From NCBI GenBank assembly GCA_018816345.1, contig JAHIWG010000100.1, positions 1 through 36,568 of the forward strand: DNA of 36,568 nt. The letters are read 5' to 3'. The notes below the pieces were generated by a model. That model saw nothing but the letters and a program-made list of their open reading frames with translations. It was not told where the DNA came from and searched no databases. Every line of letters starts with the position of its first letter. Position 1 is the stretch's first letter. This stretch comes from Spirochaetota bacterium. GTDB taxonomy: Bacteria > Spirochaetota > Spirochaetia > Treponematales > UBA12059. The translations under genes and the position numbers were made by a program. This document shows positions 72 through 20,784 of this stretch, piece after piece.

Positions 72-1139
72 CTAGCCTTCTGCGGCCTCTACGACCATCG
101 CAGGCCCCTCGCCTCGTTCGGTCACAGTTCCTACGATCGCGGCCGCGTGGCCCGCGGATCGCAGCTCATCGAGGCAGGCCTCGGCCCGCCCGCTAGGTAC
201 GGCGGCCAGGAGGCCGCCCGAGGTCTCGGGCACGAAGAAGAGGCCCCGGAAGGCCTCGTCCAAGCCCGCGGCGAACGCCACGCTAGGCGCGTAGAACGCC
301 CTGTTCCTATGCGCGCCGCCGGGCAGGAACCCGGAGGCCGCTAGCTCGGCCGCGCCCTCTAGGTAGGGTAGCGCCCCCGCGAATACGCGCAGGCCCACGC
401 CGCCCTTGTCGGCCAGCTCCAGCGCGTGACCCGCGAAGGAGAACCCCGTCACGTCGGTGCAGGCGCGCGCTCCGTGCCTGACGAGCGCGCGGAGGGCGTC
501 GCGGTTGAGCCGCTTCATCGACGCTATCGCCCCGGCCAGGACGTCAGACGGGCAGGCCTCGTTCTTGGCGGCCGTCGTTATGGCGCCGGTGCCGAGGGCC
601 TTCGTCAGCACGAGGGCGTCCCCGGGAACGGCCCCCGACTTGAGGAGCACGCTATCGGGATGGGCGAAACCGACGACGGCCATGCCGAACTTCGGTTCCG
701 GGTCCAGGATAGTATGCCCGCCCGCGACGGCGCATCCCGCTTCCGCCGCCTTCTCCGCCCCTCCGCGAATAATCTCGGCGACGGCCTCCGCTCCCAGGTC
801 CGGCGGGAACGCGGCGAGGTTGAGGGCCAGTATCGGCTCGCCTCCCGTCGCGTAGACGTCCGACAACGCGTTCGCCGCGGCTATCGCCCCGAAATCGTAC
901 GGATCGTCGACGACGGGCGTGAAGAAATCAGCGGTAAAGATGATGCACCGCGTATCGTCGACCCTATACACCGCCGCGTCGTCGCCCTCGTCGAGCCCGG
1001 CGAGGAGAGAAGAGGCGCGTTCCTTTGGCACTAGGCCGGCTAATGGACGCAGAACCTGCGCCAGGGCCTCGGGGCCCATTTTAGCCGCTCACCCGGCCGC
1101 CGAGCACATCGACGTAAGCCGTATCTCGTCCCTGTCCAT
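72..1139 (-). CDS. selD: Selenide, water dikinase (selenophosphate synthetase), selenocysteine-containing
   Basis: Makes selenophosphate, the selenium donor for Sec-tRNA, from selenide and ATP. The start is ATG at 1139, behind a strong Shine-Dalgarno sequence (AAGGAGGG). From it the frame reads MDRDEIRLTSMCSAAG, then TGA at 1089-1091, then AAKMGPEAL. This matches the SelD N-terminal pattern IRLT...G(C/U)xxK, so codon 17 is read as selenocysteine at the catalytic position and Lys20 is the conserved lysine. Beginning instead at the ATG at 1079 would remove the active site. The rest is typical: GDDAAVY, the metal/ATP segment TADFFTPVVDDPYDFG, AGGHTI, TDVTGFSFAGH and the C-terminal PETSGGLL. The full length of 355 residues is normal for the family. 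It is divergent from selC-selA-selB, and all components needed to decode its own UGA lie next door. Confidence 0.96.
1044..1063 (-). promoter_or_regulatory. Candidate bacterial SECIS hairpin in selD mRNA
   Basis: Downstream of the UGA at 1089-1091 the mRNA can fold as TGGCGCAG (1063-1056), loop GTT (1055-1053) and CTGCGTCCA (1052-1044). This gives five contiguous pairs, then three more past one unpaired T on the 3' arm. The loop starts 34 bases after the UGA and begins with G, which agrees with the usual bacterial SECIS spacing and apical G. In E. coli fdhF the bulged U is on the 5' arm, so the fit is partial. A competing GGGCC/GGCCC hairpin lies slightly closer to the UGA. Confidence 0.5.
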
Positions 1140-1307: not shown

Positions 1308-1336
1308 TTGACATCGACCGGCTCCTCCCATAGTAT
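1308..1336 (+). promoter_or_regulatory. sigma-70-type promoter for selC-selA-selB
   Basis: A perfect -35 TTGACA (1308-1313), a 17-base spacer and -10 TAGTAT (1331-1336) predict a start near 1343, about 30 bases before the mature 5' end of tRNA-Sec. It is the only good promoter-like element seen ahead of selC, selA and selB, which suggests one transcript carrying the tRNA and both mRNAs. Confidence 0.65.
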
Positions 1337-1373
1337 TGAAAGCGTCGCGCCCTTGAACGCATGACCGCGACAT

Positions 1374-1462
1374 GGAAGTTGATGGGGTCCGGTGGCTCCC
1401 GCGGTCTTCAAAACCGTCGGTCGCGCCTAGCGCGACGGTGGGTTCGATTCCCGCCTCTTCCG
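1374..1462 (+). tRNA. selC: tRNA-Sec (anticodon TCA)
   Basis: The layout is that of a bacterial tRNA-Sec. The D-arm has a six-pair stem and four-base loop (GGGGTC-CGGT-GGCTCC). The anticodon arm is GCGGT-CTTCAAA-ACCGT with anticodon TCA. A long variable arm contains TCGCGC-CTA-GCGCGA, and the T-arm is GTGGG-TTCGATT-CCCGC, with discriminator G at 1462. The outer acceptor pairs GGAAG/CTTCC are good, but the next two positions are T against T and T against C. The 3' strand from the T-loop to the discriminator is 12 bases rather than the 13 expected for an 8+5 helix. CCA is not encoded (GTA follows), so CCA must be added after processing. selA starts two bases further on. Confidence 0.93.
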
Positions 1463-1464
1463 GT

Positions 1465-2919
1465 ATGACCACTAACGAACGCTTCGCGGGCATCCCGCAG
1501 GTAGAGCGCCTTCTCGAGGACGAGGACATAAGCGCGTACTTCCCCCTCGTATCGCGGCCTCTGGCGGTCAAGGCCGTGGCCCGCGCCCTCTCCGCCGAGC
1601 GAGAGCGGGCCCGCGCCGATCCGTCGTACGTCGCCGACGAGAAGGTATGCCGGGCCGCGGCCCTGTCGGCGCTCAAGGTCATCGAGAGGAAACGCCAGCG
1701 CAAGGTCCTGAACGGGACCGGGATAGTACTCAATACTAACCTCGGGAGGGCTCCCCTCTCCGGGACCGCCTGGGACGGGGCCAGGGAGGCGAATACCGGC
1801 TACGCCCCGGTGGAACTCTCCTTGGAGACGGGGAAGCGCGGCGCTCGGGGCGCGCTTTGCCGGGAGCTCGCGGCGGCGCTCGCGGGGGCGGAGTCCGCCC
1901 TCATCGTCAACAATAACGCCGCGGGGGTCCTGCTCGCGCTTTCCGCCCTGGCCAGGGGCAAGGAAGTGATAGTCGCCCGCGGGGAGCAGGTGCAGATAGG
2001 CGGAGGCTTCCGGGTGCCCGACATCCTGGAACTGGCCGGAGCGCGATTCGTCGAGGTGGGCACGACCAATATCGTCACCGCGGACGATTACAGGAAGGCG
2101 ATAGGCCCGGAGACGGCCTGCGTCCTCGTCGTCCATACGTCCAACTTCGCGCTGCGCGGCTTCGCCTCGAAGCCGGGCTTAGCCGAGCTCGTCCGGGCCG
2201 TCGCTCCGGTTCCCGTCATCGCCGACCAAGGCTCCGGATGCATCGACGCGGGAGTTCCCGGCGAGACGCGAGTCCGGGATTTCATCGAGTCTGGATGCGC
2301 CCTCGCGTGCTTCTCGGCCGACAAGCTCCTAGGCGGGCCCCAGGCCGGCATAGCGGCGGGCCGGCCCGACCTGATAGCGCTTATGGCGGCCCACCCGCTC
2401 TATAGGGCCTTCCGGCCCGGCAAGGCTATCTACTCGCTCCTAGAGGGCACCCTGGTCGAGCGCCTGAACGGCGAGCCAGGCCCCGCCAGCGCGGCCCTCG
2501 CGGTGCCCGCCGACGAGCTCAAGAAGCTAGCGAGGAAGATACGAGGAAGGCTACCTAAAGGGAGCGTCTCGCTAGTAGACACGGAGGCGGCCTCCGGCGG
2601 CGGTTCCGGCCCCGACGAGGTCTTCCCCTCGATCGGGTTGCGCATTACGCCGTCTTCGACCGCGGACGCCCTGCAGTCGGCGCTCCGGAAGGCTCCCGTG
2701 CCGCTCGTGGCTATAATCCGCGACGGCGCGGTGGTCGTCGACATGGCGACCCTCGCCCGCGAGGACCCCGCCGTCGTCGCCGAGACGATAGCCTGGGGCC
2801 TCGACCGCAGCGCCTCGCTGCGCGCCCTTGCGAGCCGCATCGTCAAGGCAGCCGACTCGGGCGATTCGGGCGGCTCGGGCGACGACGACGCCCCGGACGC
2901 CGCCGCCGAGCTCAGATGA
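1465..2919 (+). CDS. selA: L-seryl-tRNA(Sec) selenium transferase
   Basis: A PLP enzyme that converts Ser-tRNA(Sec) to Sec-tRNA(Sec) using selenophosphate from SelD. From ATG at 1465 the protein has 484 residues. The N-terminal domain has the family pattern [27 protein letters not shown] follows at about 83-99, then [10 protein letters not shown] (149-158), [15 protein letters not shown] (172-186), HTSNF and ADQGSG. The PLP lysine is K287 in [14 protein letters not shown]. The C-terminus carries an acidic, Gly/Ser-rich tail. An in-frame ATG at 1372 was not chosen because those 31 codons are the tRNA-Sec gene itself. No separate Shine-Dalgarno sequence exists, because only GT lies between the tRNA and the ATG. 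The stop overlaps the selB start (ATGA). Confidence 0.95.
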
Positions 2920-4826
2920 GGGTCGTCGGCACGGCCGGGCACGTCGACCACGGCAAGACGGCCCTTATCAAGTCGCTGACGGGCATCGACGCCGACCGCC
3001 TTCCCGAGGAGAAGGCCCGCGGCATGACGACCGACCTCGGCTTCGCGTACTACAGGGGCGGGAACGGCGAGTACGTCGGCGTCGTAGACGTCCCCGGCCA
3101 CGAGCGCTACCTCCGCAACATGGTCGCCGGGGCCTGGGGCCTCGACCTCGTCGTCCTAGTCGTGGCGGCGGACGACGGCTGGATGCCCCAGACGGGCCTT
3201 CACGCCTCTATCGCCGCGTCGCTCGCCGCGCCCTCGGTCGTCATCGCCGTGACCAAGGCCGACGCCGTCGAGGCGACGCGCGCGGAACGGGTCGCCCTCG
3301 ATTCGGTCGAGAGGGCCTCGGCCTTATTCGGCTTCAGGCCCGAGGCGGTCCTAGTATCTAACGTCACTGGCGAGGGCTTGGGCGAGCTAAAGGCCGCGAT
3401 AGGCCGCGCGCTCGAGGCGCGCCCCCCCGCGGTCTCCGACGGGGCCTATCTCTACGTCGACAGGGCCTTCTCGCCGCTCGGCGGCGGCACCGTCGTCACG
3501 GGCACCCTCGTGGGAGGCTCCGTCGGCTCCGGCGACGAGCTGGAGCTGCTGCCGAGGGGTGAGCGAGTCAAGGTGCGCGGCGTACAGAGCTACCGCGAGC
3601 GGGTAGAGCGCGCATTCCCGGCCTGCCGCGCGGCCGTCTCGCTCACCGGCCTCAAGGGAGGCGTCGTGCGCGGCGACGTGCTTTCCGCCCCCGGTTCCGG
3701 GGTCGTCTGCGGTAGCGAGCTCCTCGTCAGGTTCCTACCCTTGCCCGGCTCGGAGAGCCTGTTCCCAGCCGACGCGAAGGGCCGGCCCGCCCTTCGCCCC
3801 GGCCTGGAAGCCGAGCTGGCGGCCGGCAGCGCCAGGCGCGACGCGGAGCTATGGCCAATAGGAAAGACAGGCTTCGCGCGGGCCGTCCTTCGTTCGCCCC
3901 TCGCCTTCCCGGCCGGCTGCGGCTTCGTGGCACTCAGGCGAGGCGGGGCGGAGCTGCTTGGCAGGGGCGTCATCGCGCGGCCGATCAGGGCCGCGCCCGA
4001 AGGACGGAAGGCGCTCGCCGCGGCCCTGCCCCGCGCCGTCGCCTCGACCGATGCCCTCGAGGAGGCCGGCTTCGGCCGGGACCGCTCCCTCGCCCTACGC
4101 GTTTCCGTGGCCGTGTTCTACCAAGGCTGGACGGCCGCCCCGGAAGGCGTGCCGCTAGGAGTCGCCTTAAAGGCCGGATTCGAGCCTGCCCCGGCCCCGG
4201 GGGCCGCGGACGAGGCCGCGTTCCTCTTCGACCCTGTACGATGGGCGGCGTACGCCGAGGCCGTAGCCGCCGCCGCGGCCGAGCCCGGGGGCCTCTCGAG
4301 GGCGACGGGAGAATCGATTTTCGCTAGCGTGCTAGGCGCCGCCTCAAGGCAGGCCGACAGCTTGGCGGGAGCCCGCGCCGCCGACTCCAAATCCGCCTTC
4401 GAAGCGAGCGTCTCGAGGCTCGAGGCCCAGAAGGCCCTATCGAGGAACGGGGCGGCGTGGACGGTGCCGGGCTCCGCGAGGGCCTTATCGCCGGCGGAGC
4501 GGGAGACGCTCGAGCGCCTCGTCGCGGCCGGTACTTCGGGGCTGGAGCCCGGCAAGACCGCGCAGAGGGAAGACGCGCGGCCGCTTAAGGCCCTCTGCTC
4601 GTTCGGCGAGGCGGTACCGCTCGACGGCGGCATCTTCTTCTCGCGCGCCGCGTACGAAGCGTGCTCCGCCGCCATACTACGGGGCAGGAAGCCCGGGGAC
4701 CGTTTCACGGTGCCCGAGGCCAAGGAGCGCTCGGCCCTCTCGAGGAAGTATATACTGCCGCTGCTCAACCGCATGGAATCCAAGGGCCTCGTCAAGCGAT
4801 CGGGCGACGAGCGGATAGTGCTGTAG
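2916..4826 (+). CDS. selB: Selenocysteine-specific translation elongation factor SelB
   Basis: A GTPase that brings Sec-tRNA(Sec) to UGA codons marked by a SECIS hairpin. Of its 636 residues, the N-terminal EF-Tu-like G domain shows GHVDHGKT (8-15), switch [16 protein letters not shown] (58-63) and TKAD (113-116). Beta-barrel domains follow ([14 protein letters not shown] near residue 190). The C-terminal half carries winged-helix repeats ending in a segment with [14 protein letters not shown], the part that binds SECIS RNA in the family. The length is usual for bacterial SelB. Its start overlaps the selA stop by four bases, so translation is probably coupled. It closes the selC-selA-selB transcription unit. 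Confidence 0.96.
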
Positions 4827-20558: not shown

Positions 20559-20588
20559 GACGACGCCTAGCAACAATGCGGCGTCGTC
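20559..20588 (-). terminator. Hairpin at the 3' edge of the lysine riboswitch
   Basis: On the minus strand GACGACGCC (20588-20580) and GGCGTCGTC (20567-20559) form a 9-bp stem with a 12-base loop. The 5' arm overlaps the 3' strand of the proposed aptamer P1 helix by two bases. No U-run follows, so a classical intrinsic terminator is not shown. It may be part of the expression platform. Confidence 0.45.
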
Positions 20589-20784
20589 GTCCCTCTGGCA
20601 CTCCGCGGGCTCCGTGTGGATTTGAGCCCGCGACAGCCGCCGGGTATTAGCCCGGACGTCCAAGGCGCTCGGATACGGTTCCGCGCGCCCTTCGGCGATC
20701 CTCCCCTTTCACGGCTCGTCGACGGGATCCGTTCCCTCGGCGCCGCTACTCATGGGGATCGCTCCTCCATCGGTAGTCGGACGA
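20587..20784 (-). promoter_or_regulatory. Lysine riboswitch (L-box) ahead of dapB
   Basis: Read on the minus strand, the conserved L-box blocks appear in order and spacing. GGAGGAGCGA is followed by GAGTAG near 20768-20740. Next comes GTGAAAGGGGAGGATCGCCG with AAGG after it, the hallmark near 20710-20690. TTGGACGTCC, GGCGGCTGTCGCGGGC and GGAGCCCGCGGAGTGCCAGA follow. These parallel the B. subtilis lysC leader (AGAGG.GCGA, AGAGTA, GAAAGGGGAG..CGCCGAAG, GGCTGTCA). P1 can form between TCGTCC (20784-20779) and GGACGA (20592-20587). The aptamer is about 198 bases. It senses lysine and should switch off dapB-dapD-dapC when lysine is plentiful. Confidence 0.9.

Follow-up and report, generated by a model that had tools for sequence, protein, structure and literature searches.

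A tRNA-Sec gene abutting selA is conserved across a family of Spirochaetota and may release a leaderless selAB messenger on maturation

Results

The window analysed here is a stretch of 36,568 nucleotides from a Spirochaetota bacterium of the lineage Spirochaetia; Treponematales; UBA12059 (contig JAHIWG010000100.1 of assembly GCA_018816345.1). It opens with a selenium cassette in which a divergent selD on the reverse strand is followed, on the forward strand, by selC, selA and selB. The selC gene, coding for tRNA-Sec(UCA), lies at 1374-1462, and a spacer of just two bases, GT (1463-1464, read directly), separates it from selA (1465-2919), which codes for a selenocysteine synthase of 484 amino acids. 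The product of selA scores 428.2 bits against the TIGR00474 equivalog model, above the curated cut-off of 267.9, identifying it as a member of the SelA family, and in family relatives the conserved SelA N-terminal motif (IPQVERLL and variants) starts no more than about 10 codons from the selA ATG. The gene for the Sec-specific elongation factor, selB (2916-4826; TIGR00475), overlaps the selA stop codon in an ATGA. In four other genomes with a comparably tight selC-selA junction the selA-selB distance is -4 to +4 nt, an overlap or close abutment through which SelB synthesis would probably follow SelA translation by translational coupling.

The divergent selD (72-1139, reverse strand; TIGR00476) was listed as an open reading frame from the ATG at 1079, which lacks the N terminus. 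The true start is probably the ATG at 1139-1137, from which an in-frame UGA (1091-1089, reverse strand) is read through as Sec, giving LTSMCSAAG-U-AAKMGPEAL, so that SelD is itself a selenoprotein; the motif around the UGA is repeated in eight relatives. A Shine-Dalgarno-like sequence, AGGAGGGAAG, lies 5' of this ATG. Far from the cassette, the window also holds an ordinary lysine riboswitch (20588-20777, reverse strand; 90 bits).

The tRNA gene was recovered both as a match to Rfam family RF01852 at 1374-1461 (65.1 bits, with a gathering score of 47) and as an ARAGORN call of tRNA-Sec(UCA) at 1373-1463, the one-base shift at each end being explained by the 7-bp acceptor stem of this tRNA-Sec. 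From the T stem to the conserved G there are seven bases (CTCTTCC), which places G73 at 1462, with two bases left before the selA ATG at 1465-1467. The initial annotation had read the discriminator and the start codon at these same positions, and its coordinates proved correct. As expected of a bacterial tRNA-Sec, the gene combines a UCA anticodon, a long variable arm and G73 with a covariance-model score above the gathering threshold, and it takes up the 7/5 fold, with a 12-bp acceptor-plus-T branch and a bulged acceptor nucleotide after position 5. If an 8-bp acceptor stem is imposed instead, positions 6-7 appear mismatched with 66-67; decay of the tRNA was considered as an explanation and rejected, since the known bulged 7/5 fold fits. 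Pair 6-67 is A-U in G004, G008 and G389, G-C in G033 and G047, and U-U in the window and most other genomes. Genes for tRNA-Sec with a bulged 7-bp acceptor stem and a 12-bp acceptor/T branch form a published class that includes Spirochaetes (Santesmasses et al. 2017, PMC5330540). The present gene resembles the members of that class in the seven residues between T stem and G73, in the acceptor bulge, and in its occurrence in a spirochaete near selA and selB; the distance to selA is not discussed in that paper's passages on 7/5-fold tRNA-Sec.

Two further observations concern tRNA-Sec genes elsewhere in the survey. In G022 (3372-3460 of locus L098; public contig SPCK01000169.1) a tRNA-Sec-like gene has the anticodon loop CTTGAAAAA rather than CTTCAAAA, its position 71 is a T, and an apparently intact selA adjoins it; an anticodon variant, decay or a sequence error are candidate readings. 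Four genomes (G276, G319, G338 and G385) have two tRNA-Sec matches each.

A single sigma-70-like promoter (TTGACA-17-TAGTAT; 1308-1336, forward strand) was found in the interval 1080-1700, where 0.2 would be expected by chance on the basis of shuffles of the same interval. It is the sole match between selD and selA, in agreement with the initial annotation, which had seen only this one promoter. Of the 14 family genomes with the tight junction, 12 have a TTGACN-17/18-TAGTAT motif 5' of selC, one has a cut contig and one shows no match; no terminator was seen. At five loci (L095, L054, L097, L055 and L051) just 5-7 nt separate the end of the -10 hexamer from position 1 of the tRNA, so that transcription would start at about the mature tRNA 5' end. 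An alternative is that the selA mRNA starts independently of selC, from its own promoter within the tRNA gene; a separate selA promoter had been counted against the regulatory idea from the outset. The search of 1337-1700, which was for sigma-70-like sites, returned none; the tRNA sequence is, moreover, fixed by its own function, and since nothing was found in favour of such a promoter we regard it as very improbable.

The selA frame is also open upstream, from an ATG at 1372 through the tRNA to 1464 on the forward strand, so that SelA could be 31 residues longer than annotated and be translated through the tRNA. Across relatives, this open frame is not conserved: spacer lengths are unequal modulo 3, and G001, G002, G003 and G022 have the frame closed. 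Furthermore, the TIGR00474 alignment begins only at residue 40 of the extended open reading frame. We therefore reject an N-terminal extension of SelA as scarcely credible and judge the open stretch fortuitous.

The initial annotation had called for the selC-selA spacing to be compared in related genomes. We searched 23 genomes of the family, a group of uncultured spirochaetes, in 15 of which SelA was found. In 14 of these 15, all independent assemblies, selA starts 1-6 nt after G73, demonstrating that the tight gap is conserved and excluding both chance and a sequencing error that hides a longer spacer. The exception, G011, has another type of tRNA-Sec and of SelA, with a 170-nt leader. All of the spacers in the 14 tight genomes are too short to hold a Shine-Dalgarno site, and they have diverged (T, GT, AT, TT, CT, AAT, TAC, GAC, CCT, TACC and CTACCT). 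Because the spacer sequences are almost all different and their lengths differ modulo 3, the junction must have outlived repeated mutation.

We extended the comparison to 326 Spirochaetota genomes. Many members of the phylum have selC directly 5' of selA, at distances from 1 nt to hundreds. Outside the family, clear gaps of 1-4 nt were found in three genomes from two other families (1 nt each in G059 and G101, which share a family, and 4 nt in G389, from another order). Gaps of 1-5 nt were also seen in G285, G385 and G299, where in-frame ATGs further downstream make the start ambiguous; G348, which has an apparent 4-nt leader and a real start that is probably further in, was left out. Other relatives have leaders of 11-170 nt, several with a Shine-Dalgarno site, including GGAGG in G157 (18 nt), AAGGTGG in G028 (32 nt) and GGAG in G190 (13 nt). 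Leaders of 11-39 nt in G303, G315 and G354 also have none, so that the absence of a Shine-Dalgarno site is not peculiar to tight junctions. In G416 (L132) the stretch from tRNA-Sec to the conserved SelA start (GTAAGCACAAGGATAAATTA) holds no ATG, GTG or TTG, for which a non-standard start, a start inside the tRNA or an error are candidate readings.

On a tree of 78 SelA sequences the tight state changes about six times, at least four of them on well-supported branches. The junction has thus been gained or lost several times in the phylum and is not indispensable. Within the family clade, which spans about 5.1 substitutions per site of the SelA tree, leaders nevertheless remain at 1-6 nt. The rate of change of ln(leader+1) is 0.18 in the family versus 2.3 and 3.1 in two neighbouring groups whose tree length is similar or larger and whose leaders span 1-155 nt, a 13-17-fold difference that is to be read as approximate because it comes from a quick SelA tree and a rough model of Brownian change on a log scale. 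This slow change in leader length suggests constraint.

These data bear on an alternative in which the short spacer has no regulatory role: a compact operon was inherited with it, translation of the cut mRNA suffices, and selection tolerates the spacing without favouring it. The frequency of the selC-selA order in the phylum, over gaps from 1 nt to hundreds, lends this some weight, as the order itself is then probably old. So does a second tight pair in the source genome, where the tRNA-Leu(UAA) gene precedes a 158-aa open reading frame without evident link to the tRNA and the junction is not conserved. We nonetheless consider an absence of any regulatory role quite unlikely, given that leaders vary far less in length within the family than in neighbouring groups at similar SelA divergence. 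With respect to the tRNA-Leu pair itself, the tRNA gene (contig C87:22494-22578, reverse strand, of G000; L156) is separated from the ATG by 3 nt (CTC), and in G019 (L226) the homologous 158-aa frame lies about 120 nt from the tRNA, with promoter-like and Shine-Dalgarno-like sequences of its own. Judging by this wide spacing, the junction in the source genome may have arisen by deletion.

What a tight junction would mean for the mRNA depends on how the tRNA 3' end is made. No surveyed tRNA gene of the source genome has an encoded CCA, and the genome carries RNase Z (336 bits, above the curated cut-off). As RNase Z cleaves CCA-less tRNAs immediately after the discriminator (PMC8549757), a cut after 1462 is expected, leaving a selA mRNA that begins 5'-GU-AUG, with the spacer as its leader. 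The two-base leader that the initial annotation had foreseen is therefore predicted by the junction, the CCA-less tRNA genes and RNase Z together. It had also proposed that the tRNA fills the whole ribosome-binding region of selA, which holds, as the ATG lies 2 nt past G73, and that the folded tRNA should hinder initiation. In support of the latter, opening the start region (-18 to +15) of the window's selA is predicted to require 12.6 kcal/mol before the cut and 0.7 after it. Across 20 tight junctions, three of them ambiguous, the mean cost is 12.9 kcal/mol for the precursor and 2.4 for the product, versus 8.6 and 6.8 kcal/mol for 25 leadered junctions, although the processed footprint is by construction shorter at its 5' end, which exaggerates the drop, and Vienna energies ignore tertiary structure. 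The genome does otherwise use Shine-Dalgarno sites: in a 376-kb sample, made up of the loci of tRNA matches and sampled contigs, 60% of called genes have an anti-Shine-Dalgarno energy of -4.5 kcal/mol or lower, versus 30% of control positions. The value for selA is +0.3 kcal/mol.

Processing might instead act in the opposite direction. SelA would then be made mainly from the uncut precursor, the cut mRNA would be leaderless and poorly translated or unstable, and the tRNA and the enzyme would be alternative products of one transcript. Such repression has been proposed in print by Mukai for selB-selC overlaps, an analogous arrangement, and would keep both SelA and SelB low, a low level being, as Mukai argues, desirable for SelB (PMC8124441). 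Against it, the uncut precursor is without a Shine-Dalgarno site and, in most tight genomes, its start region is predicted to be some 9-12 kcal/mol costlier to open. Moreover, leaderless mRNAs are a common form in Leptospira, a spirochaete of this phylum in which UTRs shorter than 10 nt are found on about 440 mRNAs (PMC5243855), making translation from short leaders plausible in spirochaetes. On this evidence we think repression by processing unlikely.

Discussion

The selC-selA locus shares several features with tRNA punctuation: the tRNA is flush with a start codon, with no Shine-Dalgarno site between them, CCA is not encoded, and the 3' processing enzyme is present. Starting from what is observed directly (the junction and its conservation, the promoter, the CCA-less tRNA genes and RNase Z), we infer co-transcription, cleavage and leaderless initiation, and any regulatory use of them, as follows. 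Transcription from the promoter at 1308-1336 would yield an RNA carrying selC, selA and selB, from which RNase P would trim the tRNA 5' end and RNase Z, because no CCA is encoded, would cut right after the discriminator at 1462. The 3' product would be a selA-selB mRNA that starts 5'-GU-AUG and is translated as leaderless, and the uncut precursor would be translated poorly, its ribosome-binding region being covered by the acceptor and T stems. One tRNA-Sec and one messenger for SelA and SelB would thus come from every cut, as in mitochondrial tRNA punctuation. That maturation of the tRNA-Sec 3' end yields a leaderless selAB mRNA is, with moderate confidence, the reading that we favour. A point against it is that in E. 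coli nucleotides ahead of a 5' AUG generally weaken leaderless translation, so that leaders of 1-6 nt might be poorly translated.

Several known systems share parts of this design. In animal mitochondria tRNAs abut open frames and their excision frees mRNAs with no leader or a very short one; there, punctuation is the principle of a whole genome, whereas here it would apply to a single bacterial operon in a genome that otherwise uses Shine-Dalgarno sites. The selAB operon of E. coli is autoregulated via a SECIS-like element bound by SelB, and so is likewise controlled in translation at the selA start, but by a different RNA element. In Alphaproteobacteria selC is nested in the 3' end of selB, so that processing of tRNA-Sec would cut the sel mRNA and leave a downstream frame leaderless (PMC8124441). 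In that case selC lies inside the selB frame and the downstream gene is ORF1 or ORF2, whereas here selC precedes selA and interrupts no protein gene. We rejected assignment to this nested-gene class (Mukai 2021), the open frame through selC not being conserved in relatives.

The closest precedent is a selCAB operon from one termite-gut lineage (contig 3300006045.a:Ga0082212_10006574), in which Mukai noted in 2021 that tRNA-Sec extends to position -2 relative to the selA start codon (PMC8124441). Both the -2 junction and the selC-selA-selB order are shared, and the author suggests a control of SelA and SelB expression; the leaderless-mRNA idea, with repression as its outcome, was proposed there for related arrangements. 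The junction itself has therefore already been remarked on in print, in one remark on one metagenome contig, without a comparative series or an analysis of promoter, leader length or processing. As far as the literature consulted shows, what is new here is that the junction is conserved across the family and recurs in other families, along with the comparison to leadered relatives and the arguments from processing and accessibility.

A stronger form of the favoured reading, in which tRNA-Sec maturation is a conserved on-switch for SelA and, by coupling, for SelB, we advance only tentatively. In this form the RNase Z cut would both make the tRNA and free the leaderless selAB messenger, and might be sensed through binding of SelA or SelB to the uncut tRNA moiety. 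The relatives provide a natural series of one operon, with leaders of 1-6 nt, of 11-40 nt and longer, that makes control of a bacterial messenger by tRNA processing directly testable. Should the cut prove to be such a switch, no regulator would be needed to couple tRNA-Sec to SelA and SelB, the two proteins that act on it.
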